Of a stretch of DNA of 63,439 nt, positions 9,314 through 58,661 are shown one piece after another. Source of the stretch: a virus. Location of the stretch: IMG/VR virus record IMGVR_UViG_3300044825_001916, positions 1 to 63,439 of that record; one strand, 5' to 3'. Position 1 is the stretch's first letter; every line of letters starts with the position of its first letter. Both the position numbers and the translations under genes were made by a program. A model generated the notes under the pieces. It did no database searches and was not told the origin of the DNA. It was given only the letters and a program-made list of their open reading frames with translations.

Positions 9314-10270
9314 TCACCGCAACAGCTCGTCGAAGTGAGGCACCAGCATCTCAAACTCTGGAGCGCCAGGGACAGGATACGCTGCCTCGCGGAGATCGAA
9401 CACCTCGCTGATGCGCGGCTTGCGGGCGCCCGTGCCGACGATGCTGTCGTAACCGTACTTCCTCGCCCGGTTGCCGATGACGTGCTCTTGCAGAGCATAG
9501 CGCATGCGATTGCCGACGCGGCTGTTGTTCACCAGCTCGGTCGCCAGAGCTGGGTTGCCGCCCCAGAGGTCCAGGAAGTCTTCGACGTTGCGGTAATAGT
9601 CGCGGCCGGCAAGAGGCGCGTTCGCGGCGTATCGGCTGTCGGACAGCATCTGCAGTAGCGTCGCCTCGTTGGTCAGCTCGCGGAACGCGCGCTCGGGCAC
9701 CGAGCCGCCCGTGTTGCCGGGAACGGCCAAAGGCGCGCGCAGGAGCGTCTCGCCTCGCACCATCTCGGAGCCGCCGTAACCGGCGGTGTTCGGCGCCCGG
9801 TAGGTGCCGACGCTGCGGGTGGGGAGCGTGGCCGGCAGGTAGAAGACGCCCTCGCGGATGGCCTCGGCCCCGGCCTGCTCGGGCTTCTGGTAACGCAGCA
9901 GCTCCAGCTGGAGGCCGTCGTCGGTGATCCGTGCGCCAGGCGTGTTCTCCACCGCCTGCAGGAAGCGGGCGTCCTGCGGCAAGCGCGTGGTCATCTGGAT
10001 GGCGCGCGCGGTGGCGGGGGAGACGATGCCGCCGAAGCCCTCGCCGAAGCCGCGGGCGATCGTGACGCCGGCGCTGGCGGGGCGCTCGCCGCGGATCTGG
10101 GCCTCGATGTCGCGCAGCTCGTCGCGCAGGGTGCGGCGCGCCGGGCGATCGGCGTCAGAAGCGCGCCCACCAGAGGCGAGCGCGAGCGGAGACCTGCGCA
10201 CAGGCATCGGCGCGGAGGCTGCCGCCCTGGCGAGGGCACCGCGGGTGGCGGTGTGGCGAGGCGTGTGCAT
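9314..10270 (-). CDS. Virion-associated protein, possible ADP-ribosyltransferase-like C-terminus
   Basis: A 318-residue protein. Residues 1-75 are Ala/Arg-rich and probably disordered. The middle has VSPATARAIQMTTRLPQDARF and REGVFYLPATLPTRSV. The last ~90 residues (YRNVEDFLDLWGGNPALATE, ARKYGYDSIVGTGARKPRISE, VFDLREAAYP) resemble the ends of phage ART-type domains, where GYDSIV...EVFD often closes the fold. Its start overlaps the stop of the large enzyme gene upstream (TGATG), so the two are probably made together. The enzymatic assignment is tentative. Confidence 0.45.
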   Translation of the reverse strand: MHTPRHTATRGALARAAASAPMPVRRSPLALASGGRASDADRPARRTLRDELRDIEAQIRGERPASAGVTIARGFGEGFGGIVSPATARAIQMTTRLPQDARFLQAVENTPGARITDDGLQLELLRYQKPEQAGAEAIREGVFYLPATLPTRSVGTYRAPNTAGYGGSEMVRGETLLRAPLAVPGNTGGSVPERAFRELTNEATLLQMLSDSRYAANAPLAGRDYYRNVEDFLDLWGGNPALATELVNNSRVGNRMRYALQEHVIGNRARKYGYDSIVGTGARKPRISEVFDLREAAYPVPGAPEFEMLVPHFDELLR

Positions 10271-13200
10271 CAGAACTCTCGCCGGTAGCCGAGGCGGAGA
10301 CCGCGCGACGGAGCCGGGCGGTCCATCAGCTCGATCGGATCCGCGCCCGGGAGCGTGTCGGGATCGCCCATCATGCGGTCATGGTAGTCGAGCGAGAGGC
10401 GCCCGCCGCTCGGGGTCGTGTAGCCGACGCCGGCGCCGGTCATGCGGCTCTGGTTGCTGCGAAAGCCGCGCCCGCTGGCGGACACGCCCTGCTGTCCGGC
10501 GGAGAAGTCGAGCGCGGCACCATCACGGCCGACCGGGACAGCGGCGCGCGCGTTGACGCCGCCGGCAACTACCCTGCCGCCGCGGATCGGGGTGAAGACC
10601 CCACCGCCGGAGGTCTCGAGGTCCGCCTCGCGGATCAGGTCCAGGAAGCGCTGCGCCTCGTAGCTCAGCTCGGGCGATACCTGGCCGCCCTCGGCGAAGC
10701 CTGGTGTGTAGAAGCTGCGCTCGGCCCCGAAGCCGTAGCGGGTCGGGTCGCCGGAGAGGGGGGAGAAGCCGCGCGTGCCGGGGGCCGGCGCGGGCTGCGG
10801 AACCGGGGTCGGGGCCGACGTAGTCTGCACCGGATCCGGGAGCAGGTTGAAGCCGACACCAGGCGGGTTCGGGTCGCTCTCGCCACCGCCGCTGTCGGGG
10901 TTAGAGGCGGGGCCCTCGCCGGGCGTGTAGCTGACAATGCTCGGCGCAACGCCCAGAGCGTTGCCGAGCTGAGATCCGAGGTAGCCCGCAGCTAGGCCGA
11001 GGCCCGGAAGGCCAGTGGCGATGCCGGCGGCGAGACCAGCAAGCCCAGCCCCGAGGCCCACGGGATTGATTGAGGCGGCCTGGCTCTGCAGCCCGAGATT
11101 ATCCGTCAAAGTGCCGATTTGAACGCCCGGCGGCGAAAGGGCGCTCTGCAGGCCAAAGCCGATCGCCTGGTTCAGGCCGATGTCGCCTCGACCATAGGCG
11201 CCGAGCGCCTCGGCCAGGCTTGGAGCGTTGGCGAACCCGGTCGGGTTCACGCCGCCGGTGTCGGCGATGCCCACGCCGAGGCCGGCCTGCTGAGCGGCGG
11301 TGGCCGTCGACATATTCGCCGCCTGAGACGTGCCTTCGGGATCCGCCGAGGACATCCCGGCAGACGCATTGGGTCCAGGGCCGCCCTGATTGCCGTAGCC
11401 GGAACTCTCGGGGCCGAAGCCGGCGCCAATGGCGTCGCTGACGGCCGCGGCGGCATCGGGACCAGCGCCAGGGCCTTCGCCGGGGCCACTGTCCTCGCTA
11501 CTGCCGCCACCCTCTTCGCCGCCACCACCGCTGTCGCCGCCGCCGCCGTCGGATCCATCTCCGCCGCCGCCATCGCCACCGCCGCCGTCGTCGAACTCAA
11601 GGAAGCCGGTGTACGGGTTCGTGGTGCCGGATCCGCCCATGGCGGCCAGCATCAGCGCCTCGCGGGGCGTGATGTGCGCGACGAGGGTGTCGTTGCCGCG
11701 GCCCATGGCGCCCAGCATCCTGGCCAGGCCACCCTGCGCCATCATAGCGGGCTCCTGCTCCGGCATCGCGGTGGCGTACCGGCGCTGGCCCTGCTGGACC
11801 ATCTGCAGGTGGCGCTCGATCGGGCTGGGCTGACCGGCGCCCGAGCCCTGCATCTCAAGGCCCGCGATCACGTCGCGCATCACGCTCGGATCATCGGCGC
11901 GGCGCTGACGTGCGGCCGGCACCGGCGGGGCAGGCGGGGGCGGGAACGGGATCGGCATGGGCGCCTGAGCGGCCGGAGCAGCGGTCTGCTGCTGGGGCGG
12001 CGGGACGGCGCCGATGCGGGGGATGGGGGGCGGCTCGGCTGGAGCCGCGGCCTGGGGCGGCTGAGCTGGCACGCCGCGGAAGTGGTCGAGCACGCGGCCA
12101 GCGAACTCGGGGCCGGTCATGTTCTCGTTGCCGGCGTTCCAGAGAACGGCGTTCCGGCCCACGATGTCAACGGCCGGGCGGTTGCCCTGCAGCAGGCTGA
12201 CGGCGCCCGTCGCGCCCTGCTGATGCGCGAGGTAGAGCGTCGGGGCGTCGACCTCGAAGCCGCGCCGACGCAGGGCGCGCGCGTTGTCGGCCGCCAGGCG
12301 GGCCGCGGCCTCGGCGGAGGCGACCTCGTCGTAGGGATCGCGCAGGCCCATGGCCGTGGCCGTGCGGGGGATGAACTGGAAGGGGCCGGCGGCGCGCGAG
12401 TTGCGGTTGAACAGGCGCGTGCCGTCGCTGCTCTCAATCGCGCGGACGCGAGCGAGGTAGCCCTCCGGCAGGTCGTACTGCTGCTCGAGGCGCGTGTAGA
12501 GCGCGGCGCGCTCCTCCGCCGTCGGGGCGGGGCGGCGGGGGCCGCCGCGAGCTTGGCCGCCAGCTGCAAGGCGCTGGGGCTGGGCGATGCCCTCGAGCGA
12601 GCGCTCGGTGGCGGTGATGCCTTCGTCGCCGGCGTAGTTCGGGTTTGCCTCGTTCGGGTCGACTTGGCCGCCCATGGCGAAGCGGGGCATGTCGTCCTCG
12701 ATGCCCTGCTCGGCGGCGAGCGCGGCGGCCTCGGGGTAGCTGACGCCGAGCGCGGCTGCCAGACCGGCGATGCCGTACTTGCGGACGATGCGGATGAGGC
12801 GCTCGTCGAAGATGACGTAGTTGCGGGTGTTCAGCTTGTCCGCATGGGCGATCGCCTCGGCCTCGTTCGCGAACTCCGCGATCGGGCGTTGCGCGGCGGC
12901 GCCTTGGTAGACCCCCCAGCTCACGCGACCGTCGGGCTGGACGATGGGCGAGACGTCGACGTTGCGAGCGCCTCGGCTGCCGGCGTCGAGGTAGCGGATG
13001 CCGGGGATGCCGGCCTCGCGGAGGGCGCGAGACGCGCTTTCCCTGCTGCCGAGGATGCCCTCGGCCGCTTCGTAAAACTCTCCGCCAGTCGCGCTTGCGG
13101 GCACTGCGCTTTCGATGCGGCCGTACTGGCGCATGCCGGGCAGCAGTTCGCTGATGTCCTGCCTGAAAACGGGCGCATCCCAGTCGAGCAGGTCGGCGGG

Positions 13201-13872
13201 CTGAACGCCCAGCTCGACTTCGTACATGCGGCCCGGGGCCAGCGCCCGAAGCCGGGCGTCGAGGTCGCCGTAGACGCGCACGAGGTCGTCGGGCGTGGCG
13301 CGCCCTTGCTCGTATGGCCCCTGACCGCGCACGAGGCGGTCGATCATCCGCATCGCCTGCGGGTCGTCCGCGACGCGGCGCGTAGCCGGGTCGGCGAGGC
13401 GCGGCATTTCGGCGAAGGCGCGGAAGCGCTCGGCGACCTCCTCCGGCGAGCGAAGGTAACCCATGTTCGTGTTCACGAAGCGGTTCACGTCGCCAGTCGC
13501 GTCGGCGGACAGCTGGTCGCGATAGGTGCGGGCGGTCGCTTCAGCCTCGCCGAAGTAGCCGCCCGAGCCATAGGCTTGGTTACCTTCGCCCGTGCCCATC
13601 TTGTCGAGCCGGAAGCGGCCGAGCGGGAAGTCCTCAAGCACGGCCGCGCCCTCTGGTACGTCGGGCAGGCGATCGGGCGCGCCAACGAGGTACTCGGTCT
13701 GGCCGCTAGGGCGCCGGATCAAACGCTCGGCGGCGAAGTCGTGCGGGCTGCCGTGGTAGGCGCGAACGCCGGTCGAGGCCTCGGGGGCGGCGCGCTCGGC
13801 GGAGCCAGTGACGGCGCGAGCCAACGCGCCGACAGCTTTCGCGCGGCTCACGCCGTCACCGCCCCGTCGCAC
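10270..13872 (-). CDS. Multidomain virion protein: ADP-ribosyltransferase-like plus lytic transglycosylase
   Basis: A 1200-residue protein, probably packaged and ejected. Residues about 35-380 look like the phage ART/polyvalent-type domain: VRAYHGSPHDFAAE, FRLDKMGTGEGNQAYGSGGY, YEVELGVQPADLLDWDAP, AGIPGIRYLDAGSRG and NYVIFDERLIRIVRKYG. Residues about 470-590 form a soluble lytic transglycosylase domain with the catalytic-Glu segment YLARVRAIESSDG and RAAGPFQFIPRTATAMG. A Pro/Ala linker, an HITPREA...TTNPYTGFLEF module, a long Gly/Asp-rich stretch and a hydrophobic Gly/Ala segment follow. Four GG(Q/L)(V/A) peptides are present. The GTG at 13872 is uncertain; another GTG lies seven codons in. 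Confidence 0.7.
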   Translation of the reverse strand: MRRGGDGVSRAKAVGALARAVTGSAERAAPEASTGVRAYHGSPHDFAAERLIRRPSGQTEYLVGAPDRLPDVPEGAAVLEDFPLGRFRLDKMGTGEGNQAYGSGGYFGEAEATARTYRDQLSADATGDVNRFVNTNMGYLRSPEEVAERFRAFAEMPRLADPATRRVADDPQAMRMIDRLVRGQGPYEQGRATPDDLVRVYGDLDARLRALAPGRMYEVELGVQPADLLDWDAPVFRQDISELLPGMRQYGRIESAVPASATGGEFYEAAEGILGSRESASRALREAGIPGIRYLDAGSRGARNVDVSPIVQPDGRVSWGVYQGAAAQRPIAEFANEAEAIAHADKLNTRNYVIFDERLIRIVRKYGIAGLAAALGVSYPEAAALAAEQGIEDDMPRFAMGGQVDPNEANPNYAGDEGITATERSLEGIAQPQRLAAGGQARGGPRRPAPTAEERAALYTRLEQQYDLPEGYLARVRAIESSDGTRLFNRNSRAAGPFQFIPRTATAMGLRDPYDEVASAEAAARLAADNARALRRRGFEVDAPTLYLAHQQGATGAVSLLQGNRPAVDIVGRNAVLWNAGNENMTGPEFAGRVLDHFRGVPAQPPQAAAPAEPPPIPRIGAVPPPQQQTAAPAAQAPMPIPFPPPPAPPVPAARQRRADDPSVMRDVIAGLEMQGSGAGQPSPIERHLQMVQQGQRRYATAMPEQEPAMMAQGGLARMLGAMGRGNDTLVAHITPREALMLAAMGGSGTTNPYTGFLEFDDGGGGDGGGGDGSDGGGGDSGGGGEEGGGSSEDSGPGEGPGAGPDAAAAVSDAIGAGFGPESSGYGNQGGPGPNASAGMSSADPEGTSQAANMSTATAAQQAGLGVGIADTGGVNPTGFANAPSLAEALGAYGRGDIGLNQAIGFGLQSALSPPGVQIGTLTDNLGLQSQAASINPVGLGAGLAGLAAGIATGLPGLGLAAGYLGSQLGNALGVAPSIVSYTPGEGPASNPDSGGGESDPNPPGVGFNLLPDPVQTTSAPTPVPQPAPAPGTRGFSPLSGDPTRYGFGAERSFYTPGFAEGGQVSPELSYEAQRFLDLIREADLETSGGGVFTPIRGGRVVAGGVNARAAVPVGRDGAALDFSAGQQGVSASGRGFRSNQSRMTGAGVGYTTPSGGRLSLDYHDRMMGDPDTLPGADPIELMDRPAPSRGLRLGYRREF

Positions 13873-13926: not shown

Positions 13927-16503
13927 TCATGCCGCATAGGGGTTGGCCCGCCTCCTGCTAGGCTGCCAGTATTCGTCGATTTCGCGCGGGTTGGCAACCG
14001 AAACCCCCATCTTGTCCACGATCACCCGCAGCGCCTGGGTCGAGCTGTCGACGAGGTCGTCGTGGGCGATGCTCTTCTCGCCGGAGAAGCTGCAGAGCTG
14101 CTCAATGAGGGGATCGGCCCAGGATCGGGGCTGGCCGGGGCGCTTGTCGCTCTCGACGACCCAGACCATGCCGTTGGCGAAGAGGTGGCTGACCATGTGC
14201 AGGCGCTCGAGCTTGCTGGCGCGGCCGGGGTTGTAGGCCACCGCCTGGAGGCCTTCGCGGGCGAGCATCTGGCGCAGGCTGATGCCGCTGCCCTTGTCCT
14301 CGATCACGCACAGGTCGGGCTTCCGGCCCGAGGTGCCGAGCAGGGGCGCGCCGTAGATCGGGGCGATCAGGGGCTTGTCGCGGTCGCCGTACTGCACCGC
14401 CATCTCGCGCTTCGTGCGGTCGATCAGGTCGGGCATGCCGAGGCGTTCCTGCCAGCAGTCGAGCAGGAGGACGCCGTCCTGGCGGTCTTCGCGGAAGAGG
14501 CCCCAGACGCTGCACCCGGTGTAGTCGGCGTCGCCGGTCTTTGAGTTGCGCGTGGCCTCGGTGAAGGCGGTGTCGAGCGAGAGCACGATCAGGTCGAAGA
14601 CCGGCAGCGGCTTGTCGGCCGGCCAGAGCTGGATCCAGGAGCGCTTGATGATGCCCTGATCGGCCGGGTCGAGCACCTCGGCGTGGATCTCCTGCCGGCC
14701 GAGGGCGGTGCCCTCGTACTGCAGGATCTGCTCGCGGAAGGTGGGCGCCAGGTTGGCGAGGTTGGCGTAGGTCGAGGCGCGGGAGACGGTGACGTCCTTG
14801 CCTTCGCGCTTCAGCAGCCGGGTGATGATGGGCTTCGGCTTGGGCGTGGTGGAGATCACGATGCGCGGCCGATCGCCCAGGCGCATGCCAAACATGAGCA
14901 TGTCGAAGGCTTCCTCGGCCCGCTGCCAGGCCGCCAGCTCGTCGAGCCATCCGCCGTGGAACTGAGGGCCGCGGAAGCGCTCGGGGTTCTCGGCGGAGAT
15001 GCCCTTGATGAGGCTGCCGTTCTTGAGGCGCAGCTCGACGTCGGTCTTGTTGTACAGGGCGCCGCTGGAGGTGGGCTCGATCAGCTCGTGCGGGATGACG
15101 GCGAGCAGGCCGCTCTCGCCCTCGAAGCAGGTGCCGACAAGGTCGCCGTAGGTCGGTGCGGAGACGAGCCACCGGGTGCCGGGCATGGACCACGCCCACC
15201 AGCCGATGGTCTCGGCGGAGGTGCGGGTGTTGTGGGTCGGGATCATCGCCCGGCCGCAGAGGTAGAGGCGAGACGGGCTGTCGACCGTGACGCAGCGCAC
15301 GGGCACGCTGGGTACGGGCTCGACGGCGACGATGTATCGACGGCGCTGGCGGTCGGCCTGGCTGCCGTCTCCGGCCTTGATGCGGGCGAGCTTGCGGGGC
15401 AGGCGGAAGACGGGCGCGTAGGGCGTGAAGTTGACGCGGTACTTCGGACCGCAGTCGCGACCGCTTAGGGTCGCGCGGGCTTCGCGCAGCGTCGCCTTCA
15501 TGCCGAGGCCCGACACGAGGTCGAAGACGGCGTCAGCGATCGGGCGCTTGGTCGTGCAGAACTCGGCGATGCCGCGGTCGGAGACGTAGCCGTCGGTGTC
15601 CATGAGCCCCTGCAGTAGGGCAAGGCGCTGTTCGGCGGAGGCGCGCAGGTACGAGGCGGGAACGTGCTTGTTGCGCAGAACGCCCAGCTTACTCAGCCGG
15701 TGGGTAAGCGACGCCGGGTTCGGTTGGCAGCCGCTCTTGCCGGGCACCCACAACGCTTTCGCGGGGGAGATGGCGTAAGTGCGGGATGCGTTTCCGGTCT
15801 CGCGCGACTTTCCGATCGTCTCGCCGCAGCGTTTGATCTCCTCAAGCACCTCGGGGTCGGCGGTGGTGATTTCGCCGCAGGCGGAGCTGCCGTCGCCCAG
15901 CCAGGCCCCCAGGACGTAGGGGTGAATGGGCAGTTGCTGTTCTGGAAGCTCCAAGGGGAGGCAGACGCGCACCGCGTGATTGATCTCGCGCCCGTCCATG
16001 AGCGACGCGCGGATCTCGTCGGTGGTGAACGTGTTGCGATGGGAGGCGGGCTGGCACTGCGGCTTTCGCGGGTCGCCGGTGCCCGCGCAGCGGCCGGCGG
16101 CTTTGCGCGCCTTGCGCGTCTCGGTGCGCCACAGGTGCTCACCGTCGGCTATGATCTCAGATCCGTCGCTGAAGGTGACGCGGTAACACGGCCGATCGAC
16201 CATGACCGGGTGCGCCTCGATGACGCGGCAGGGGCGGCCTTGCTCGTCGAACAGGGTATCTCCGGCCTTGACCTCGCCCATGGTAGTCCAGCCGCCCAGC
16301 GTTGGCAGGGGGGTGTCGAGCGCGAGCGCCTTGCCGGCGCCGCGGCCTGCGAGGAGCAGCCAGAGCGACCACCAGTCGCCGGCGGGGACGAGCTGGTGGT
16401 CGAGGGCCTTGTCCATCCACTCGGCGTGCCAGAGGAGGCCTCGGGCGACGTCGTCGGGGAGCTTGGCGATGAGTTCGATTTCGGCGGGCGTCAGCGCGCT
16501 CAT
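13927..16503 (-). CDS. terL: Terminase large subunit interrupted by an intein
   Basis: DNA-packaging ATPase and nuclease. The 858-residue precursor contains an intein at residues 59-425; the spliced terminase would be about 491 residues, a normal size. Walker A is GRGAGK at 53-58, split from TRTSAE by the intein. A Walker B-like GGWLDELA follows, then nuclease motifs of the RNase H-like domain: VLSLDTAFTEA, LCVIEDKGSG and DDLVDSSTQALR. The ATG overlaps the end of the upstream XF1762-like gene by four bases. Without splicing the ATPase should be inactive, so the intein must be functional or the phage defective. Confidence 0.92.
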   Translation of the reverse strand: MSALTPAEIELIAKLPDDVARGLLWHAEWMDKALDHQLVPAGDWWSLWLLLAGRGAGKALALDTPLPTLGGWTTMGEVKAGDTLFDEQGRPCRVIEAHPVMVDRPCYRVTFSDGSEIIADGEHLWRTETRKARKAAGRCAGTGDPRKPQCQPASHRNTFTTDEIRASLMDGREINHAVRVCLPLELPEQQLPIHPYVLGAWLGDGSSACGEITTADPEVLEEIKRCGETIGKSRETGNASRTYAISPAKALWVPGKSGCQPNPASLTHRLSKLGVLRNKHVPASYLRASAEQRLALLQGLMDTDGYVSDRGIAEFCTTKRPIADAVFDLVSGLGMKATLREARATLSGRDCGPKYRVNFTPYAPVFRLPRKLARIKAGDGSQADRQRRRYIVAVEPVPSVPVRCVTVDSPSRLYLCGRAMIPTHNTRTSAETIGWWAWSMPGTRWLVSAPTYGDLVGTCFEGESGLLAVIPHELIEPTSSGALYNKTDVELRLKNGSLIKGISAENPERFRGPQFHGGWLDELAAWQRAEEAFDMLMFGMRLGDRPRIVISTTPKPKPIITRLLKREGKDVTVSRASTYANLANLAPTFREQILQYEGTALGRQEIHAEVLDPADQGIIKRSWIQLWPADKPLPVFDLIVLSLDTAFTEATRNSKTGDADYTGCSVWGLFREDRQDGVLLLDCWQERLGMPDLIDRTKREMAVQYGDRDKPLIAPIYGAPLLGTSGRKPDLCVIEDKGSGISLRQMLAREGLQAVAYNPGRASKLERLHMVSHLFANGMVWVVESDKRPGQPRSWADPLIEQLCSFSGEKSIAHDDLVDSSTQALRVIVDKMGVSVANPREIDEYWQPSRRRANPYAA
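15229..16329 (-). mobile_element. Ala1-type intein with LAGLIDADG-like homing domain in TerL
   Basis: 367 residues inserted in the P-loop between GAGK and TRT. The N-terminal splicing block starts ALALDTPLPTLGGWTTMGEV with Ala as first residue, which places it with inteins that skip the usual Cys/Ser1 acyl shift. Block B is DGEHLWRT, and the C-terminal end is GRAMIPTHN with the terminal His-Asn pair, followed by extein Thr. Between them are two LAGLIDADG-like segments, PYVLGAWLGDGSS and LLQGLMDTDGYVS, with Asp residues at the expected places, so the homing nuclease looks intact. Confidence 0.9.
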
Positions 16504-16985
16504 GTCGGCACCTGGGCCTCAAAGAGCGAGCGGTTGATCACGTCGGTCTTGTCGACGCGCGGCCTGGACGGGGTATCCCATGATCGCCCCTTGACCTCGG
16601 CGATGAAGCGCCAGCCGGCGGCCCGAAGCGTGGCGCCGGTCTCGTCGGCCCGGATGTAGGTGCCGATGCGGCGATGGCCGAGGGCGAAGGCGGCGCGGGC
16701 GGCGGCCCCGTAGAGAAACGAGCAGGCGTTGCGCGTGCCGTCGCTGCAGAGGCGCGTGACCTCAAGGGTCAGGCCATCATCGCGAGCGCGGGAGACGGGG
16801 CGACCGACGATGCAGACGCCGACGATGCGCCCATCGGCGACGGCGCCGATTGAGAACTTGTGGCCCACCACGGGCCGGTGGTGCCTGTGGTGCCGGGAGA
16901 CGAAGTCGTTGGCCTCCTCCAGCGTCAGGGGGACGGGCGCGAGCTTCGGACCCCGGCGGCGGTCGGCTTCAGTTGGGCTGCCCAT
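16500..16985 (-). CDS. XF1762-like (GNAT-fold) protein between terminase genes
   Basis: A 161-residue protein with the pattern of the phage XF1762 family: LTLEEANDFVSRHHRHHRP, VGHKFSIGAVADGRIVGVCI, GRPVSRARDDGLTLEVTRLC and GTRNACSFLYGAAARAA. The fold is acetyltransferase-like, but the substrate is not known to me. These genes are frequent in phage genomes. It overlaps terL by four bases, and terS ends 15 bases upstream, so the three are one unit. Confidence 0.8.
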   Translation of the reverse strand: MGSPTEADRRRGPKLAPVPLTLEEANDFVSRHHRHHRPVVGHKFSIGAVADGRIVGVCIVGRPVSRARDDGLTLEVTRLCSDGTRNACSFLYGAAARAAFALGHRRIGTYIRADETGATLRAAGWRFIAEVKGRSWDTPSRPRVDKTDVINRSLFEAQVPT

Positions 16986-34450: not shown

Positions 34451-34696
34451 ATGTCGCATGGACCTTGGCAGCCTATTGAGACGTTCCCGCAAACATGCGA
34501 GCCCGTCCTGTGGACGGACGGGTTTCGCATGCGCGTCGCCAACTGGACGCTTGAGATGTTCGATCATCCCAACGGAACGATAGTCTGTTCCGCCGACATG
34601 GAAGAGCTTGAAGACGGAATTGCCTGGATGGCAATTCCTATCCCGCCTTCGCCGTCCGAGCGGTGGCCAACCCGCCCTTGCGCTTCGTCTTCTTGA
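34451..34696 (+). CDS. DUF551-like small protein
   Basis: 81 residues from the ATG at 34451, chosen because AAAGGAAA precedes it (a GTG at 34427 is possible). SHGPWQPIETFPQTCEPVLW and GIAWMAIPIPPSP fit the WxPIxTxP...W pattern of DUF551. Its 3' end overlaps the end of the leftward ejection-protein gene by 59 bases, tail to tail. Confidence 0.6.
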   Translation: MSHGPWQPIETFPQTCEPVLWTDGFRMRVANWTLEMFDHPNGTIVCSADMEELEDGIAWMAIPIPPSPSERWPTRPCASSS

Positions 34697-37600
34697 CCTT
34701 GCCGCCCTCGGCGTAGAGGTCGATCTCGCCGCGCAGGAACTTGTTGTAGGTCACGTCGATTGGCTCACCGCGAATGCGGGCGGTGACGCCGATGCGCTTC
34801 TGCAGAGCTTGGAGATACGGGATAGGCTCCGACTTCAGGCCGGTGTCCTTACCGCCGCCGACCCATGCAGCAGACTGGGCCTGGGCGGGCTGCATCTTTC
34901 GACCCTTGGCGACCTTCTGCCCCATGCTCTCCAGGTAGGCGTATTCGCCTGGCAGGAGCGCGCCCTCTTCGCCGAAGCTCTTCTTGGCGCGATCCATGCC
35001 CACGATGTCGCGGATGTAGTGCGTGTCGGAGGTGATGGGGCGCCAGTTGCCGAGCAGGTTCTGCTGGTAGCTGATCGGCTTCGGGTTGCTCACCGGATCC
35101 ATGTCGCCGCCAAGGAACTCGCGGGTGCGCTGCGCGTGCTGCACCTGCGCCTTGGCCCCGTACGGCGGGGGGAGGTCGCCGGCCAGCGTCTGAACCGTCT
35201 TTCCCGTGCGCGGGTCGGAGACCTGCACGACCTGCGGCAGGGGCTCACCGCGGAGTGCGCGGTTCAAGTAGTGCGAGGCCGTGCGGATGTTGCTCTCAAT
35301 CGGATTGGTCATTGAGGTTGAGGCGTTCACCAGCGTCCAGAGGCGGAAGCGCTCGTCGCCTTCGGTCGGACCATACATCGCGCGAAAGTCATCGCGCAGC
35401 TGCTGCAGGTTATACCAGCCCTGGTTCTGCTCGCCGCCCGCTTCAATGTAGCGGCGCAGACGCGCGGGGCCCTCGCGCTCAAGGCCTTCAAGGCGCTCGG
35501 TGACCTTCGGCGCGGCACGGGGGAGGTCGAACTGAGGTACATCCGGCATGCGGTTCAGGGTCGCCGGAGAGAGGTCGTAAAGAACGCCCCTGCCGCCCAC
35601 CTCGGCGTCGTAAGACGTCGCGGCGCGGTTTACCTCGCGGGCGATGCGCGTGCCCTCGGCCAACTTGCCAGAGGCCTCTGCCGCCTCCTGGGAGGGCAGG
35701 CGCATGCCGGGCAGCTTGCCGGCGAACAGCGCCTCGGTCGTCGGCACCTGCTTGGTCTTGCCCTTGCTGTCGGTGAGCGTGACCGTCTTGCCGTGGCGCG
35801 AGATCGCCTCGCCGATGACCTCGCGGTCGGCCAGCTTCAGGCGGGTCGCGGCGTCGATTGCTTCATCGGACTGGCTTGCCAGCCCCTCGCGCACGAGCGG
35901 CGATGCGCCCCCGCCGGTGAGGCGGAGAGTGTCGTACAGCTCGCCGAGCTGCTTATAGGTGAGATCGCCGGATGTGCGAGCCGCGCGATTGATATCTGCG
36001 GCCGATGCCATGCCTGGCGGGGAAATACCGGACAGGGCAGGAGGAGCGTCAGCTGCGCGAGCGGCCGACAAGCCGCCCCTAGTGGCCTCGCTGCCCTCCG
36101 GCACCAGGCGCTCAGCGAGGGCCCGCGCCACCTTCATCACCGCGCCACCGCGGCTGTAGCCGCCGATCGCCGCAGCGCGGCGGGCGCCCTCGGGGGACAT
36201 GCGCTTGCCCATCTCCTCGATGATCGCCTCAATGATCGGGCTCATCTTCGGTTCCTTCACTTGGCCGCCTTTCGCGAAGCCGGGAGGTCCAGGGGGCGGG
36301 AGGAGCGGAGTGCTGGGAGGCGCTCCGATCGTGGGCTCGATACGGGGGGCGGCCGGCCTGGCGGGGGGCGCGCCAGCCCCCACCGCCTGCGACATGGTGC
36401 GCAGGGCGCCCATGATAGCGCCGCCATTCGGGCCGCTCAGGAGCTTGTTGATGCGATCAGGATCGCTCGACGACAGGATCTCGCCGACCTCGCGCATCAC
36501 GTTCTCGTTCACGCGGGTGCGGCCGCGCGCGAGCAGGCCGCCCAGGAGCGCCGTGCCGCCGGTCGTCAGCGGGTCGCCGGACGTGAAGATCCCGACGCCT
36601 GCGCCCGCACCTGCGCCAATGCTCATGTCGCGCAGCTGCTGGGCGGTCGTTGAGTTGCCCTGGGTCGCCGACCGCAGGCGGTTCATGATGCCCTCGCGGC
36701 GAACGAAAGCCTCAAGCTGGCGCAGCTCGTCGGGCGGCATGATGACTTCGAGCTTGCGTCGGTTGGCGCCGTCGAACAGCTTCACCACGTCGCGGCTGTC
36801 GGGCGCATTGCGCACTGTGTTCGCCAGCTCGGCCGCAAAGCCTCGGCGGAACAGTTCCCGCTCCGGCTCGCTCATGGAACGGAAAGCTTTCTGTGTGTCG
36901 GTCAGCTGGATCGCGCGGTTCTGGCGGAAGAAGGTCTGGCCAGCCTCAAGCGCGTCTTCCGCGCCAAAGAACTGACGGGCCGTGCCGCGCGCCTTGCCGA
37001 ACTCCGGCACCGCCGCGTCGAGTTCCTGATTTAGGCGGTTGCGAAGCGCTCTCAGATCGCTCTGCCGAGAGCTGCCAGGCGCCGCGGCCTCGGCCGCCTC
37101 GCGCAGGTTCCGCTGCACCTGATCCCAGAACTGCAGGTTCGGACGGACCTGCCCCCCATCGGGGGTCGTGTTCCAGACAATGCGACCCTGATCGTCGAAG
37201 CTGAAGGGATTGCGAATGACGATGTTGCCTTCAAGCGCAGCACGGTCTGCGGCTTTCGCAGGAACATCGCGGATCGCGGCCTGCACAGATGGCGACTGCG
37301 CAAGCTGCTCCAGCTCAGGGGTCCACAGGTTGGCATTTTCGCCAACCTGATAAGCGGCGCGATAGAGCGGAGCGTTCACACGGCTCGCTGTGGCGCGCAG
37401 GGTGTCGTTGGTCGAAGTCATGTTCAGATTGCCGCCGAACAGGTCTTCGATGAAGTCGCCAAAGCGGGCCTTCTGCTCGGTGTAGCGAGGATCGGTGGAC
37501 GCGCGCAGGCGGGCGGAGGCGTCTTCCGACACGTTGCCGGCGGCTCGCGCCAAGCGAAGCGTGCCGGTGGCGCCGAGGTCGCCCACCACGATGTCCTGGC

Positions 37601-38369
37601 CGGCAGCGCGAGCTGCGGCGATGTCGGCCGGCGAGAGCACGTCCTCGACGCCGCGGGCACGGTCGGCCTCGATCGTGCGACGCACGACGCGCTCGGCGAA
37701 CCTCTGCGGAGCGACGATGCGCTGCCCAGCGTTGAAGACCCCCATGCCAACTGCAGGGATCGCCCCGAAGGCTGCACCGAGCGCGCCCTCGGTTGCGGCG
37801 CCCATAAGGCGATCTTCCGCTCCCTCACCACGGCCGAAGCCGCTGGCCGCGCCAGCACCGCCACCAGCGGCGATGGCGGCCTTCGCTCCTCGGCCAACCA
37901 GACCGAGCGGCATCACCGCAGAGCCAGCAATGTTCGCGCCGAGGTAGGTGTTCGGGAACTGCTCTTCGGCCGCGCGGTCGATCGCGCGCTCGACATCACG
38001 AGCGGGCGCGTAGGCTTCCGTCGCGCGGCTGCCGAAGGTCTGAGGGAATGCGCGTTCGGCCGCCATGCGGGCGCCCCCGACATTCGCGGCGAGCGCGCCG
38101 AGCATGGGAACTCGCTCGGCCACACCGCGAACGGCTTCCGGGAGGCCCGCGACGCCGGCCGCGCGCAGGCCCGCGAGTTCGTCGTTGAAGTTGGCCTGGA
38201 AGCCGGCCCTCGCCGCCTGAGCGGCCGCCTCCATCTGGCTCATCTGCGGAGCCGTCGCTCGGCCGCTCGCGGCCTCCTGCATGACGCGGTTGATCGTCTC
38301 CGGCGACGTGCCCGCCGGAAAGTTGACGACGAGACCGTTCGGGCCGTTGACGCGGATCTGCTCAGCCAT
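34638..38369 (-). CDS. Large internal (ejection) virion protein
   Basis: 1243 residues, last gene of the late block. The N-terminus EQIRVNGPNGLVVNFPAGTS, PETINRVMQEA is a short domain seen at the start of many phage virion proteins. Residues about 140-220 are Gly/Ala hydrophobic (GAGGGAGAASGFG; GALGAAFGAIPAVGMGVF), possibly membrane-active. A middle helical region follows, and the C-terminal ~300 residues hold a conserved phage domain (QGWYNLQQLRDDFRAMYGP, WTLVNASTSMTNPIESN, YIRDIVGMDRAKKSFGE). GGQV, GGAV and GGKV peptides occur between domains. Probably enters the cell with the DNA. Confidence 0.65.
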   Translation of the reverse strand: MAEQIRVNGPNGLVVNFPAGTSPETINRVMQEAASGRATAPQMSQMEAAAQAARAGFQANFNDELAGLRAAGVAGLPEAVRGVAERVPMLGALAANVGGARMAAERAFPQTFGSRATEAYAPARDVERAIDRAAEEQFPNTYLGANIAGSAVMPLGLVGRGAKAAIAAGGGAGAASGFGRGEGAEDRLMGAATEGALGAAFGAIPAVGMGVFNAGQRIVAPQRFAERVVRRTIEADRARGVEDVLSPADIAAARAAGQDIVVGDLGATGTLRLARAAGNVSEDASARLRASTDPRYTEQKARFGDFIEDLFGGNLNMTSTNDTLRATASRVNAPLYRAAYQVGENANLWTPELEQLAQSPSVQAAIRDVPAKAADRAALEGNIVIRNPFSFDDQGRIVWNTTPDGGQVRPNLQFWDQVQRNLREAAEAAAPGSSRQSDLRALRNRLNQELDAAVPEFGKARGTARQFFGAEDALEAGQTFFRQNRAIQLTDTQKAFRSMSEPERELFRRGFAAELANTVRNAPDSRDVVKLFDGANRRKLEVIMPPDELRQLEAFVRREGIMNRLRSATQGNSTTAQQLRDMSIGAGAGAGVGIFTSGDPLTTGGTALLGGLLARGRTRVNENVMREVGEILSSSDPDRINKLLSGPNGGAIMGALRTMSQAVGAGAPPARPAAPRIEPTIGAPPSTPLLPPPGPPGFAKGGQVKEPKMSPIIEAIIEEMGKRMSPEGARRAAAIGGYSRGGAVMKVARALAERLVPEGSEATRGGLSAARAADAPPALSGISPPGMASAADINRAARTSGDLTYKQLGELYDTLRLTGGGASPLVREGLASQSDEAIDAATRLKLADREVIGEAISRHGKTVTLTDSKGKTKQVPTTEALFAGKLPGMRLPSQEAAEASGKLAEGTRIAREVNRAATSYDAEVGGRGVLYDLSPATLNRMPDVPQFDLPRAAPKVTERLEGLEREGPARLRRYIEAGGEQNQGWYNLQQLRDDFRAMYGPTEGDERFRLWTLVNASTSMTNPIESNIRTASHYLNRALRGEPLPQVVQVSDPRTGKTVQTLAGDLPPPYGAKAQVQHAQRTREFLGGDMDPVSNPKPISYQQNLLGNWRPITSDTHYIRDIVGMDRAKKSFGEEGALLPGEYAYLESMGQKVAKGRKMQPAQAQSAAWVGGGKDTGLKSEPIPYLQALQKRIGVTARIRGEPIDVTYNKFLRGEIDLYAEGGKVKKTKRKGGLATARTAKAG

Positions 38370-40135: not shown

Positions 40136-41221
40136 TCAGCTGCCGCCCAGGGCGCGCGCGAGTGTCAGGCCGCCCAGGATCTGAGCGAGGCCCGAGGGCT
40201 GGTAGGTCGACGCAGGGCCCGTCGAGGCCGTGTTCGTCGTCTGCGAGTAGGGCTGACCGCGCACGAGGTTCGACAGGAAGCCGAGCTGCGTCTTCGGGTA
40301 GTCCCGCTGCGCCACGAAGTCCTGGTAGGCCACGTCCAGGTTCCGCTGGTCGAGGGCCTGCTGCTGCTGGCCGATCGCTTCAAGCGCCGCCGTGTCGGTG
40401 TAGCCCATCTGCTGGCCGATGCGGCCAAGCGCTCCGAGCTGCTGCCCAGCAGCGATGAGGTTCTGGTTGCTGACGTTCTGCAGGTTGCCCTGAACCTGGC
40501 CGAGCTGGCCGAGGTTCTGCTGCTCCTGGGTGCCGAGGCCGCCCAGAACGCGGCCAATCTCAGCGCGACGCTTCATGTCTTCCTGGGCCGCCGTCAGCGC
40601 GCCCTGGTAGCCCTTGTTCAGCAGGTCGCCCTGTGCAGCCAGGGCGCTTTCTTGGACATCTCGAAGGGCCTGGCCGGTGGCCTCCTGCATGCGGCTGGAG
40701 CCGAACTGGCCCGCCCGCACGAAGGTGTCGCTCACCTGCGGCATCAGCTTCTCGCGCAGCTGCCGGGCCGCCAGGTCGCCGATGCGGTTCACGACGGCGT
40801 CCTGATAGGGGCTCATGTATTCGCCGACCATGCTCGGGGCGGTAGCGCCGGCGGAGCTGAGATACGGCATCGCAGCGCCGGTCGGGGACATGCCGATCGC
40901 CTGGGTCAGCGTCGGGTTGGCCACCTGAAAGCCGGAGGTCTGCGTCGCCTGGTTGATGGCGCCGATGCCCTGGTTGATCGTCGGCGTGAAGGCGCCCTGC
41001 TGAGCGCGAGTGGCCGCGAAGGCCTCGCGCTGGGCGGGGCTGAAGTCGGCGAGGCGCGGGGCGCCGTAGGTCTGGTAGGGCTCAGCCGCGACGGCGTTGC
41101 CCTTGGCCAGCAGGCCCTGCGTGTAGTCGGACAGCCACTGCGGGATGTTCGCGGTGGTCGTGCCGTAGGTGTTGACCGAAGGCGGAGCCTTGCCTTGGAA
41201 CAGGAAGTCGGTGACGCTCAT
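40136..41221 (-). CDS. Internal virion protein, helical
   Basis: 361 residues, rich in Gln, Ala and Gly and mostly helical (FVRAGQFGSSRMQEATGQAL; ENLGQ-type repeats such as GGLGTQEQQNLGQLGQVQGN). I recall similar proteins (LADFSPAQREAFAATRAQQG) in the internal-protein clusters of many marine and freshwater podoviruses. No enzymatic motif; ejection-complex component is the best guess. Confidence 0.6.
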   Translation of the reverse strand: MSVTDFLFQGKAPPSVNTYGTTTANIPQWLSDYTQGLLAKGNAVAAEPYQTYGAPRLADFSPAQREAFAATRAQQGAFTPTINQGIGAINQATQTSGFQVANPTLTQAIGMSPTGAAMPYLSSAGATAPSMVGEYMSPYQDAVVNRIGDLAARQLREKLMPQVSDTFVRAGQFGSSRMQEATGQALRDVQESALAAQGDLLNKGYQGALTAAQEDMKRRAEIGRVLGGLGTQEQQNLGQLGQVQGNLQNVSNQNLIAAGQQLGALGRIGQQMGYTDTAALEAIGQQQQALDQRNLDVAYQDFVAQRDYPKTQLGFLSNLVRGQPYSQTTNTASTGPASTYQPSGLAQILGGLTLARALGGS

Positions 41222-41225: not shown

Positions 41226-42488
41226 TCACCCCGCCATCTTGAGGTAGCGCGACGGATCCTTCGCGTCGGGGCTCATGCGCCCGCGTGCGAGACCGCCCGC
41301 TTTGTGCTTGCGGATGCGCTCGCGCATCTCGTCGAGCTTCTTCGCGCCGGCGTCGGACGATCCATCGCCCAGCATGGACACTGTCTCGGCGTCGAAGACG
41401 TACTCGCCGTCCGACAATAGCGCCGGGATCCGATCCTCGCGGCCGTGGCCGTCGCCCTTGACGTAACGGCCTTGAGCGGCGCGCATCAGGCCGCCCATGG
41501 CCGCAGTCGCGCGCGGCGTTTCCGGCAGCTCGTTGTCCTCGTAGAAGTCGCGCTCGCCGCCGGTGATGGCGTAGCGCCGCATGTCGCCATCCGGCTGCAT
41601 GCGAGTGCGGCGGAACTCAACTTCCGGGAGAGGGCGGCCCATGTTCGGGTCGTTCTGCTGGGGCGCTGGAGTGGCGCCGCCAGACTGGCCGCCGCCCTGC
41701 GCGCCGCTCAGTGCGGCATTCGCAACCAACCCGAGCGCCGCTAGTTGGCCGACCCGGTTCAGCATGGAGGTGCCGCCAGCGGCTGCACCGCCAGCCCCGC
41801 CAGCCCCGCCAGCCCCGCCCGCTACTGCGCCGCCAGCGCCGGCAGCCGCTCCGCCAGCGGGTGCGGCAGCAGCCGGCGCTGCGGCGGCGGGGGCGCCGTT
41901 GAACAGGTTGTTGATCGCTGGCGCGATGCCCGAGCCCCCGGTGGGGGAGAAGATGCCGCCGGAGAAGATGCTGCCGTCTGCGGCCGGCGTCCCGGTGATG
42001 CCCATCGCCGGCAGAGCATAGCCCGCCAGGCCGCCGGTCAGGGCGCCCGTCAGAGCACCCCTACCGCCACCCGTTGCGGCGCCCAGGCCAGCGCCGATCA
42101 GGCCGGTGCCGACGGTCGACGCCGCCGTTCCGGTCAGCCCCAGCCCTGTCCCGACAGCGGTGCCCACGCCCGGGGCCAGCGCGCTTAGAGCCACCGTTGC
42201 CACCGGGGCGGCCCACTGCTTGAACCACTTCTGCTTCCAGAATGGCTTGAAGGCATACATGCCCGTGTGCGGGTTCCGCTCGGGAGGGCCGAAGTGCCGG
42301 ACCATCTCCTCGAACTCGGCCTTGTTGACGTGGACGATCATGCTGTCGCCGCCCTCGCCCGCGCCGGCGACCCGCTTGGCCGATCGGGCCAGGCCGCCCC
42401 TGGCGTAGGGGGTCGCGTCCGGGCGGCTCATGTCAACCATGACCGGCGTGTAGCTGACGCGCTCGTAGGAGACTGTGTTTCCGTTCAT
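41226..42488 (-). CDS. Internal virion protein with Gly-rich membrane-active core
   Basis: 420 residues. Residues about 45-75 (SMIVHVNKAEFEEMVRHFGP, NPHTGMYAF) resemble the HITPREA...NPYTGFLEF module of the large enzyme at 10270. Residues 90-260 are Gly/Ala/Thr-rich hydrophobic stretches (AVGTGLGLTGTAASTVGTGL), like channel-forming segments. The C-terminal part has DRIPALLSDGEYVFDAETVS and GDGSSDAGAKKLDEMRERIR, a module common in phage internal proteins. Three GG(L)(A/M) peptides. It may form part of a transmembrane conduit during DNA entry. Confidence 0.6.
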   Translation of the reverse strand: MNGNTVSYERVSYTPVMVDMSRPDATPYARGGLARSAKRVAGAGEGGDSMIVHVNKAEFEEMVRHFGPPERNPHTGMYAFKPFWKQKWFKQWAAPVATVALSALAPGVGTAVGTGLGLTGTAASTVGTGLIGAGLGAATGGGRGALTGALTGGLAGYALPAMGITGTPAADGSIFSGGIFSPTGGSGIAPAINNLFNGAPAAAAPAAAAPAGGAAAGAGGAVAGGAGGAGGAGGAAAGGTSMLNRVGQLAALGLVANAALSGAQGGGQSGGATPAPQQNDPNMGRPLPEVEFRRTRMQPDGDMRRYAITGGERDFYEDNELPETPRATAAMGGLMRAAQGRYVKGDGHGREDRIPALLSDGEYVFDAETVSMLGDGSSDAGAKKLDEMRERIRKHKAGGLARGRMSPDAKDPSRYLKMAG

Positions 42489-54913: not shown

Positions 54914-55965
54914 CGGGTATATGGCCGCAGGTTCGGGGCGATCTTCATCGGCGAGCTGTCGCGCTCCTCGAAGAAGCAGGTCGCCAGCGCCTCGTCCGCC
55001 AAGCCCTTCAGCGTGCCAATCATGCTCGCCTCGACCTGGGGCGTCTCGAGCGCCAGGCGATAGGCCAGCATCGCCACGAGGCCCTCATACCAGCGCTGCG
55101 GGATGTCGAGCGTCTGCGTCAGGCGGCCGACGTCCATCAGGTAGCGCCGGCGCCAGGTCACGATCTGGTTGAACTGCTGGGCGTAGCCCGGCACCGGCCA
55201 GAGCCGGATGATGGGCACCTCGCGCTGGCGATCAAGCCAGAACTGCTGCGGGCGACCCTGGAAGGTCTTGTTCGGGAAGTTGACGTAGTCGTCCTGGTTC
55301 AGCCGGGCGAGCGGGATCTCGGTCGGGTTGAAGCCGGGGTAGAACTCCGCGACGTTCAGTATCGTGCCGTTGATGGCGCGCAGGCGGTAGAAGGACATCG
55401 GGAGCGCGCCCTCGACGTCGAACCACCGAAAGACGCGGCCCTGGTAGAGGAGCGGCCCGGGCGCCAGCGCGGTCATCCAGGTGATGCCGTCGGTCGAGGT
55501 CTCCACGACGAAGTCGTAGGTGCCGGTCGCGGTCGTCGCGATGCCGTAGGTCGTGACCGCCATCTGCGACTGGCCGGCGAGCGTGATTGAGCCGTTGACC
55601 GTCGCCTGGGTGCAGGAGGTCAGCATGTCGCCATCGAAGGCGTTGTCGGCGATGCCGCTTGAAGAGCTGTAGGAGCCCTCAATCCGCTGCATGGTGCGGA
55701 TGTTCGTGTTCAGCAGGTCGACGGTGCCGACGGGCGTGTCGACGTAGGAGACGCCGTAGGTGAACGGCAGGATGGTCTTCTCGACCGTCCAGAGGGGCAG
55801 GCCCCGGTTCACGAGGTCGGACATCAGCAGGTAGAGCGCGTCGCGCGCCAGATCCTGCATCTCGGCCGTGATCGCCTGCGGCGGGAGCCGGCAGCGACGA
55901 TACGCGTGATCGACGACCTTGTTCGTGTCGAAGACCGTCGTGGATGTCGTACCGGAGACCGTCAC
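54910..55965 (-). CDS. Head-tail connector/stopper-region structural protein
   Basis: 351 residues from a GTG start. An N-terminal adaptor-like helical part (AYRRCRLPPQAITAEMQDLA, RDALYLLMSDLVNRGLPLWT) encloses a central discoidin-like beta domain (MQRIEGSYSSSSGIADNAFD; FDVEGALPMSFYRLRAING) and is followed by PQQFWLDRQREVPIIRLWPV and the helical end WYEGLVAMLAYRLALETPQV. The adaptor halves are typical of podovirus connector proteins; the inserted beta domain may bind sugar or act as decoration. Confidence 0.65.
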   Translation of the reverse strand: MTVSGTTSTTVFDTNKVVDHAYRRCRLPPQAITAEMQDLARDALYLLMSDLVNRGLPLWTVEKTILPFTYGVSYVDTPVGTVDLLNTNIRTMQRIEGSYSSSSGIADNAFDGDMLTSCTQATVNGSITLAGQSQMAVTTYGIATTATGTYDFVVETSTDGITWMTALAPGPLLYQGRVFRWFDVEGALPMSFYRLRAINGTILNVAEFYPGFNPTEIPLARLNQDDYVNFPNKTFQGRPQQFWLDRQREVPIIRLWPVPGYAQQFNQIVTWRRRYLMDVGRLTQTLDIPQRWYEGLVAMLAYRLALETPQVEASMIGTLKGLADEALATCFFEERDSSPMKIAPNLRPYTR

Positions 55966-55983
55966 GTCACGACCCTACCGCGA

Positions 55984-56010
55984 GGAACGGCCCGCAAGCC
56001 GAGCCGTTCC
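55984..56010 (-). terminator. Hairpin between basic-protein cluster and connector gene
   Basis: A perfect 8-bp stem GGAACGGC (55984-55991) with GCCGTTCC (56003-56010) and an 11-base loop. No T-run follows on the minus strand. It is in the 89-base gap after the basic-protein cluster and may limit read-through. Confidence 0.45.
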
Positions 56011-56054
56011 CACCATACACACCGAGCTGGCGAAATGCCAACTTTCGGGCCACT

Positions 56055-56357
56055 TCAGCAGCCGACCTTGCCGCCATTGGCCTTCATGGCCTTCATGACC
56101 GGGCCGCCCTTCTTCAGCCCCTTCATGGACTGCTGGGCGTCGTGCTTCTTGTCGGCGGCCGACATCTCCCACTTCTCCAGGGACATGCCGTGCTTCTTCG
56201 CCAGCTTCCTGTCCTGGGCCAGGTCTTCCTTGGAGTGTTCCCACTCCTGCGAGGAGACCTTGCCGCCGCGGGCGTAGGCCTTGACCATGGTCTTCCCAGC
56301 CGAGCCGGTGAAGCCCTTGTCGGAGGGAAACTGGAACTCGCCGTACTTGATAGCCAT
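56055..56357 (-). CDS. Small lysine-rich virion-region protein
   Basis: 100 residues: [40 protein letters not shown] and [20 protein letters not shown]. Basic and helical, with the GGKV peptide near the centre and again at the C-terminus (NGGKVGC). Frequent in phages of this gene order, function unknown. First of a cluster of five basic genes. Confidence 0.65.
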
Positions 56358-56358
56358 G

Positions 56359-56505
56359 TCAGCTTCCCTTCTTCCGGGTCGCCTTCTCAGCGCCCTTAAT
56401 GGTGCCCTTGTTGATCGAGGCGTAGAAGACCTGCTCGCCCTTCTTCGCCCCGTACTCTTTGCTCATGGCCGCCTTGATCTTGGCGCCCTTCTTCGTGAGT
56501 GGCAT
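56359..56505 (-). CDS. Very small lysine-rich protein
   Basis: 48 residues, [39 protein letters not shown] well-conserved type in phage genomes (KKGxKVFYASxNKGTIKG). About one residue in four is lysine. Function unknown; possibly packaged with DNA. Confidence 0.65.
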
Positions 56506-56506
56506 C

Positions 56507-56743
56507 TCAGCCTTCCTTCCTCTTGCCCGAGGGCGTGACTGGCCAGCTTTCTCTGGCTGGTCCGGTCTTGCGAGAGGCGATCAAGCGCTTCTCGCCCGCA
56601 GACATGCTCTTCGCGGCCTTGGCAGGCCGGCAGGCGGGGTAGGGACGATCGCCCTTCTCGGATCCCGATCGGCCGCAGGCCTTCCCGGTCTTCACGTCCC
56701 GCCAGTTCTCGCCGAACCACTTACCCAGGCCGCCCTTGGGCAT
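56507..56743 (-). CDS. DUF5872-like basic protein
   Basis: 78 residues: GLGKWFGENWRDVKTGKACG, RSGSEKGDRPYPACRPAK and a basic end. The KWFxExWxDVKTGKxCGR...YPACRP pattern fits what I recall as DUF5872, found in many phages and some giant viruses. The two conserved Cys may bind a metal. Function not known. Confidence 0.7.
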   Translation of the reverse strand: MPKGGLGKWFGENWRDVKTGKACGRSGSEKGDRPYPACRPAKAAKSMSAGEKRLIASRKTGPARESWPVTPSGKRKEG

Positions 56744-56744
56744 C

Positions 56745-56924
56745 TCACTTGCCCTTCACGCGGTTGTCGGGGCCTCGCCAGTTGCCGCCGGCCTTCTTGT
56801 ATTCCTTCGAGGCCCAGGCGTTCGCGTAGGCGGAGGGGTAGACGTCGAACTTGGCCTTGGCCGCCGCCTTCTTGGCGCTCCAGAGCTTCGGGTTCGTCGG
56901 CTTCGGGGATCCCGCCTTCGCCAT
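56745..56924 (-). CDS. Small basic protein (right-end allele)
   Basis: 59 residues, MAKAGSPKPTNPKLWSAKKA, the intact version of the gene cut by the left window edge. YPSAYANAWASKEYKKAGGN is the conserved part. The Met at 56924 is chosen because it follows the HNH stop as TGAccATG, the same junction as in the left allele, where the HNH is missing. Confidence 0.7.
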   Translation of the reverse strand: MAKAGSPKPTNPKLWSAKKAAAKAKFDVYPSAYANAWASKEYKKAGGNWRGPDNRVKGK

Positions 56925-56926
56925 GG

Positions 56927-57370: not shown

Positions 57371-57621
57371 TTGCGCCTCGCTTTACTGAGGCGGCTGTTG
57401 GGATCCTTTGCCGCGTCGGGAAACATCTTCGCCTGCCCAGCAGAACGGGCGCAGAAGGACTTCCGGCGGCCGGCAGCCACCTCGCTCTTCGCCGCCTGCT
57501 TGGCGGAGACCGGCGGCTTGATGTCGTGGCCCTGAGCCCGCAGAGACGCCCGCCCCTTGGCGTTCAGGCCGCCGGTCTCGGACTGGCCCTCCTTACGCTG
57601 CCAAGCAGGCGTCTTCGGCAT
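57358..57621 (-). CDS. DUF6321-like small basic protein (right-end allele)
   Basis: 87 residues, with GGLNAKGRASLRAQGHDIKP, RRKSFCARSAG and end RRKWDC. Same N-terminal half as the left-end copy; the centre and end differ (GQAKMFPDAAKDPNSRLSK), and this copy has the NDPxSRxxKAxRKW-type end usual in the family. It is overlapped at its start by one HNH gene and at its end by another. Confidence 0.75.
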   Translation of the reverse strand: MPKTPAWQRKEGQSETGGLNAKGRASLRAQGHDIKPPVSAKQAAKSEVAAGRRKSFCARSAGQAKMFPDAAKDPNSRLSKARRKWDC

Positions 57622-58153: not shown

Positions 58154-58158
58154 CGTCG

Positions 58159-58560: not shown

Positions 58561-58598
58561 GCGTGCGCCTCAACGGCCGGAGGGTGGAGTATTCCCGG

Positions 58599-58657: not shown

Positions 58658-58661
58658 CCAA

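Follow-up and report, generated by a model that had tools for sequence, protein, structure and literature searches.

A short Gly-Gly-centred peptide recurring in virion-module proteins of a podovirus-like phage and of other viral contigs

The subject of this work is a short peptide with the consensus [FYM]-A-x-G-G-x-[VA] (strict form [FY][AS]xGGx[VA]), which recurs in several proteins encoded by a stretch of 63,439 nucleotides, here called the window, that constitutes one IMG/VR virus record (IMGVR_UViG_3300044825_001916) and belongs to a podovirus-like phage. The peptides listed in the original prediction are all present on the minus strand, in open reading frames (ORFs) 10270, 34638, 41226 and 56055, and a motif-like peptide, LASGGRA, was found in a fifth protein, ORF 9314-10270 (Table 1). 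The status of virion protein is taken here from gene position and PHROG matches, those of ORF 10270 being to transglycosylase and lytic tail proteins. Copies occur at the very C-terminus as well as close to the N-terminus, and they also lie between modules or follow one another in tandem; they are kept while codons and neighbouring domains change. The carriers, which had been regarded as unrelated, are not all so at the motif: the NPxTG modules that follow MAQGGLA in ORF 10270 and YARGGLA in ORF 41226 are homologous (hhalign 94.5%, E 8e-8), so that these two motif sites are not independent.

Composition-preserving shuffles of the 38 window proteins (2000 rounds) and the same proteins reversed were used as controls. 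The strict form occurs 7 times in four window proteins against 0.34 after shuffling (maximum 4, none of the 2000 rounds reaching 7) and 0 in reversed proteins, and the pattern as originally proposed gives 10 matches against 0.61 (maximum 5 over 2000 rounds) and 2, respectively. GGx[VA] alone is barely enriched, with 41 occurrences against 29.6 in shuffled and 53 in reversed proteins; therefore the signal sits in the full pattern, and plain Gly-richness was rejected as its source. It should be noted that the pattern was picked after inspection of the sequence, and more weight is given to the independent tests, namely forward and reversed peptides in IMG/VR, residue preferences and conservation in homologues.

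Positional conservation, whose lack was to count against the original prediction, is found in two families. In ORF 34638 and its seven homologues, FAKGGQV and YSRGGAV are unchanged throughout save for one variable x position (GFAKGG[QR]V), and YA[RK]GGL is invariant in 11 homologues of ORF 41226, down to 48% identity. Compared with the window over the 48 codons of the block that carries both motifs, each homologue in this family of eight (ORF 34638 included) shows 7-11 synonymous and 0-4 amino-acid changes; a variable proline-rich linker adjoins this near-unchanged block, and the sequence after it is replaced in three of the seven homologues, by one kind in L005 and by another in L006 and L007 (L-numbers are labels of compared viral loci). 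As synonymous codons vary and both motifs are invariant, selection acts on the peptide at the protein level, and an origin at the DNA level (recombination site or repeat) was rejected because synonymous codons vary freely. Homology of the ORF 34638 core to GB2A gp62c was also considered and is not supported.

Table 1. Motif copies and related features of the window (aa, amino acids).
Feature	Coordinates	Strand	Remarks
ORF 34638-38369	34638..38369	-	1243 aa; N-terminal core phrog_5880 (function unknown); 3 motifs
GFAKGGQV..YSRGGAV block	36138..36281	-	48 aa, both motifs
C-terminal cargo region of ORF 34638	34641..36002	-	
YAEGGKV	34695..34715	-	near C-terminus of ORF 34638; protein ends in YAEGGKVKKTKRKGGLATARTAKAG
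ORF 10270-13872	10270..13872	-	1200 aa; ART-like, transglycosylase, linker-rich; polyvalent-type; 4 motifs
FAMGGQV	12661..12681	-	ORF 10270 residues 398-404, directly after ART-like region
LAAGGQA	12550..12570	-	ORF 10270, before transglycosylase domain
MAQGGLA	11722..11742	-	ORF 10270, after transglycosylase domain and its linker
Motif + GRGNDTLVAHITPREA..NPYTGFLEF module	11548..11742	-	homologous to N-terminal module of ORF 41226
FAEGGQV	10678..10698	-	ORF 10270 residues 1059-1065; FAEGGRV in L039
LASGGRA	10160..10180	-	near start of ORF 9314-10270
ORF 41226-42488	41226..42488	-	420 aa; ejection/tape-measure-like protein
YARGGLA	42387..42407	-	N-terminal part of ORF 41226, residue 28
Tape-measure-like segment GGLM..G.G.REDRIPALLSDGEYVFDAETVSMLGDG	41304..41507	-	hook-like; phrog_6090 tape measure, E 5.9e-7
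KAGGLA	41286..41303	-	near C-terminus of ORF 41226
ORF 40136-41221	40136..41221	-	"DNA ejection protein" phrog_4287; without motif
YARGGKV	56256..56276	-	100-aa ORF 56055
NGGKV	56064..56078	-	C-terminus of ORF 56055, protein end
Portal	6697-9276		phrog_1216

ORF 10270 and its relatives carry the motif repeatedly between modules. The FAMGGQV site is found as Y[AS]MGGQV in the homologues from L194 and L196, the LAAGGQA site as LASGGRA in those from L041 and L194, whereas at the MAQGGLA site L041 keeps LAQGG and then continues with a different sequence; in L039 the module of ORF 9314 is fused behind FAEGGLA. A larger relative in L195 (1578 aa, L195:4888-9621) contains ten motif-like sites, mostly at positions between modules, and comparison with the window protein reveals module exchange, several disparate domains being joined in one polypeptide. 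It carries an SLT domain (E 4e-25), two ART-like regions and a match to ART-PolyVal of E 3.7e-5 (25 bits, below the cut-off of 31.2). ORF 10270 aligns with both ART-like regions at 28-35% identity, and it gave no Pfam family up to E 1, so that it has no Pfam-recognisable ART-PolyVal domain. The N-terminal region of the L195 protein resembles a small free-standing phage protein (compare L072_105), with GG motifs separating the modules, and the relative at L194:5947-9351 contains a very long alternating Gly-Thr run. A DPxxVDxLV helix seen after the motif in L195 is not a general feature.

Back-translated peptides were scanned against 2.9 million IMG/VR viral contigs. FAEGGKV was found in at least 120 stretches and its reversal VKGGEAF, of identical composition, in 25 in total; YAKGGLA was found in at least 120 and its reversal ALGGKAY in 86; of the 82 ALGGKAY matches in long ORFs, 54 come from two conserved families. 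Among the matches listed, the FAEGGKV sites fall in 32 protein clusters (a separate count gave at least 28 clusters of carriers). The codons of the peptide follow the GC content of the genome from 32% to 68% (74 distinct contexts), AT-rich phages included, and further copies of the motif occur on other genes of the same FAEGGKV loci. Around the GG pairs of these loci, once the seed sites are removed, M, F and Y are preferred at position -3 (10.5, 9.7 and 7.0 sigma), A at -2 (3.4), K at -1 (4.9) and V at +2 (8.7), and control loci lack such preferences.

The surroundings of the peptide point to virion modules. A structural hallmark (portal, terminase, capsid or tail) is present in 138 of the 240 forward loci listed and a replication hallmark in 8, against 5 and 41 of 111 reversed-peptide loci; the ALGGKAY set is biased by its two conserved families and its replication count is probably inflated, the VKGGEAF set alone giving 2 and 2 of 25. 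Fourteen of the 17 carrier families with a PHROG category belong to head, tail, portal, scaffold, ejection or virion-associated lysin functions, and the remaining three comprise a primase and a regulator, which look like chance matches, and one family classed as "other". Comparison of carriers with their neighbouring genes by functional category was uninformative, as the neighbours are structural too, and it was replaced by the reversed-peptide comparison. As regards the comparison with early proteins proposed as a check, the looser pattern [FYM]xxGGx[VA] occurs in seven cultured phages 22 times in 76,946 aa of the late strand and once in 30,689 aa of the early one (p = 0.009). The peptide is thus a real and widespread short linear motif associated with virion modules.

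Many copies lie at protein ends. Among the matches listed, YAKGGLA comes no more than 30 aa before the true C-terminus in 19 of 65 distinct contexts, where 4.2 would be expected, against 1 of 17 in the reversed control (1.7 expected). Of all the forms it is this C-terminal one that best tells the candidate functions apart. The tails DYAKGGLAYMLGE, DYAKGGLAHMLGR, GRYAKGGLASALQG and GYAKGGLAKILEL close proteins that differ in length, the GYAKGGLAKILEL group and the GRYAKGGLA group each being probably a single family. Related to this, L090_350, a homologue of ORF 40136-41221, ends in FAEGGKVEEKRNPNRRSTRGRKRK, and the relative of ORF 56055 in L040 (174 aa) has six GGx[VA] sites, several of them in tandem units. 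As a separate observation, small proteins with dissimilar bodies from L056, L045, L071, L108, L113 and L121 have in common a C-terminal tail like SSASKRADGCAIRGKTRGRMV, possibly another tag.

Taken together, these data suggest that virion proteins use the peptide as a short linear docking tag, a function to which we assign an even chance. Its exposed copies would all dock at a single site of some virion component, be it the portal, the adaptor, the ejection-protein core or the tail conduit, and the multi-domain proteins, cargo modules and small basic proteins bound in this way would be incorporated or held in the particle. Tagged proteins might also be retained during ejection, and a module recombining into the locus would need to bring or keep a copy of the motif. 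A docking peptide fits best in that it accounts alike for tails, junctions, near-N-terminal and tandem copies. It is a more tentative proposal that [FYM]AxGGx[VA], with C-terminal forms such as YAKGGLAxML, is a virion-incorporation or retention tag common to many unrelated phage lineages that marks the proteins entering the particle. The common signal of the original prediction has stood as regards its tie to virion genes (forward/reversed asymmetry, consensus, conservation, neighbourhoods and C-terminal tails); of the three functions then envisaged, packaging or binding to a partner would fit best, and maturation cleavage is disfavoured.

Several points weigh against the docking tag. Both AlphaFold models, one of the region with the 48-aa block and one of ORF 41226 (mean pLDDT 35), are of low confidence and offer no structure. 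The recombination breakpoints of ORFs 34638, 10270 and 9314, which by eye seemed obviously to cluster at motifs, do not do so significantly on counting (3 of 13 at 12 aa or less from a motif, 1.2 expected). None of the ten proteins with C-terminal tags that were scanned matched a PHROG family, their place in the virion being thus putative, and several of them are mutually related. The loci from the scans are also partly related, and locus counts overstate independence; ordinary homology accounts for part of the recurrence (the ORF 10270/41226 modules and tape-measure segments). In the seven cultured phages the reversed pattern is itself found 11 times on the late strand and once on the early one. 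Besides, CRP-212 and HTVC035P have no copy or one despite similar gene content, and GB2A has only the weaker copies MARGGYA and, C-terminal, YMDGGRV, both in its homologue of ORF 41226; HMO-2011, CRP-3 and CRP-13 are cultured phages that do carry the peptide. Virions of this kind can therefore be built without the peptide, and its absence or weakness in several cultured marine podoviruses means that it is not a universal packaging signal.

The nearest mechanistic parallel comes from siphophage tape-measure proteins. A segment GPGTGTSDSIPAxLSxGExV comes after the motif in tape-measure-like proteins of several phages, and PDB entries exist for two of these; in JBD30 this segment is predicted to belong to an anchoring hook. 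The ORF 41226 segment matches PDB tape-measure chains weakly (Douge gp16 and JBD30 gp46, E 0.05-0.16), the resolved parts of both structures lying outside the matching regions. JBD30 residues 1014-1052, including FASGGHIKGPGTGTSDSIPILASNDEF, align with positions 329-367 of the ORF 41226 family profile and overlap residues 1022-1066 of gp46, for which the JBD30 authors predict a hook that holds this protein in the baseplate once its C-terminus has left (PMC11445458); in T5, C-terminal residues of pb2* were modelled between hub subunits after opening (PMC10038345). On the other hand, most motif contexts are without the SDSIPA continuation, the window apparently belongs to a podophage without a long tail, and the JBD30 hook is itself a prediction. 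We take a hook of this type as a precedent for an anchoring role, one that covers a minority of contexts. A Gly/Ala-rich hydrophobic stretch at 41900-42240, in the same tape-measure-like protein, gives from its sequence the impression of a glycine-zipper-like, membrane-inserting segment.

The location of many copies at module borders and after Pro/Ala/Gly-rich linkers would suit a flexible hinge, that is, a turn that parts modules, aids their unfolded threading through portal and tail and is copied together with them. Ejected proteins must traverse a narrow channel, as in the case of N4 vRNAP (PMC12633501), and domain swapping among ejection proteins is known (PMC8954989). Nevertheless, a hinge has no need for a fixed aromatic residue or Met at -3 or for Val at +2, the breakpoints are not significantly near motifs, and copies at the extreme C-terminus join nothing, so that no hinge is needed there; this explanation is considered unlikely. 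The homology between the ORF 10270 and ORF 41226 modules, and the continuation GPGTGTSDSIPAxLSxGE behind the motif in several phages, suggest in turn that the motif could be the conserved start of a few shared mobile mini-domains (hook-like, NPxTG and small unnamed proteins) spread by mosaic exchange. This is rather improbable: a hook or NPxTG continuation of the kinds tested follows within 40 residues of the motif in no more than 26 of 206 distinct contexts, C-terminal copies leave no room for a domain, and the NPxTG and hook modules, for which a common origin had been suggested by eye, do not align (hhalign 0.4%).

Exposed Gly-Gly pairs between domains, together with the processing of P1 DarA/DdrB-type polyvalent proteins before packaging (PMC5512222), give some ground to a proteolytic maturation site cleaved after GG in the LxGG or double-glycine manner. 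Such cleavage is very improbable. A Pfam scan of window proteins, which was not exhaustive, turned up no peptidase family. Cutting at copies that lie about 10 aa before a C-terminus, or in runs such as KKKGYAKGGMMKKKGYAKGGMM, would release trivial fragments, and in tiny proteins with a copy every few residues it would serve no evident purpose. There is also no N-terminal leader: in double-glycine (C39) substrates GG ends a short N-terminal leader, a position that the motif does not take here. As for compositional coincidence, the window is 66% GC, its motif proteins are Gly/Ala-rich and GGx[VA] alone is common; the shuffles, the reversed sequences, the reversed peptides and the AT-rich phages with the same peptide reduce this explanation to a negligible chance.

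The capsid-targeting sequence of T4 is a short N-terminal peptide that serves as a packaging tag on several unrelated internal proteins and is removed by the prohead protease at its own consensus. The tag proposed here is similar in being a short peptide common to several unrelated proteins. It differs in sequence and in being internal, C-terminal or repeated; in ORFs 10270 and 34638 the motifs are mid-protein or C-terminal, near-N-terminal ones being found only in ORF 41226 (residue 28), ORF 9314 and ORF 56055, and the Pfam scan gave no counterpart of the protease, a part that a diverged or host enzyme may play. Polyvalent proteins of phages are multi-domain mosaics that include ART and lysozyme-type domains and are presumed to be delivered with the DNA (PMC5512222, Iyer et al. 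2017). The relatives of ORF 10270, above all the L195 protein, fit this type, whereas the tag is also found on non-polyvalent proteins; the main text of PMC5512222 contains neither "glycine" nor "linker", and no description of the peptide was found in it. Podophage ejection proteins (T7 gp14-16, P22 gp7/16/20 and N4 gp50) are internal, with swapped lysozyme domains and membrane-active segments, and the passages of PMC8954989 consulted mention no peptide tag common to different ones. No description of the peptide was found in the open-access literature searched.

With regard to the genome as a whole, the region 2873-7644 recurs at 58669-63439 with 99.8% identity. Outside this 4.77-kb terminal repeat, 1-2870 and 55796-58669 differ save for short matches of 93-97%, which suggests two strain variants of one region merged in one assembly at the window ends. 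Judging by the repeat, with only short matches between the stretches before its two copies, the window resembles a circularly permuted phage genome, about 55.8 kb long, with strain variants at its ends. Capsid, SU10-type adaptor, GH108 endolysin and terminase genes were also recognised, and the closest cultured relatives found are the Caulobacter phages GB2A, RW, RLK and KcrB. The terminase large subunit (13927-16503) has about 350 aa with a LAGLIDADG domain (PF14528) inserted directly after a Walker-like GRGAGK stretch, apparently an intein. The adjoining gene (16500-16985) gave a weak match, under the cut-off, to the Mom DNA-modification family (E 0.0019), and a Cpn10 (GroES-like) domain protein is encoded at 5878-6348, between the portal and capsid genes (PF00166, E 3e-7).

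Annotation is lacking for most proteins of uncultured phages, and a peptide tied to structural modules would provide a simple cue for virion-associated, probably ejected proteins, effector modules included. With it, the way in which podophages choose and hold their internal cargo would become directly testable. If the broader proposal of an incorporation or retention tag is true, the peptide could serve to predict virion cargo. Were the peptide sufficient for incorporation, it would be comparable to the capsid-targeting sequence of T4.

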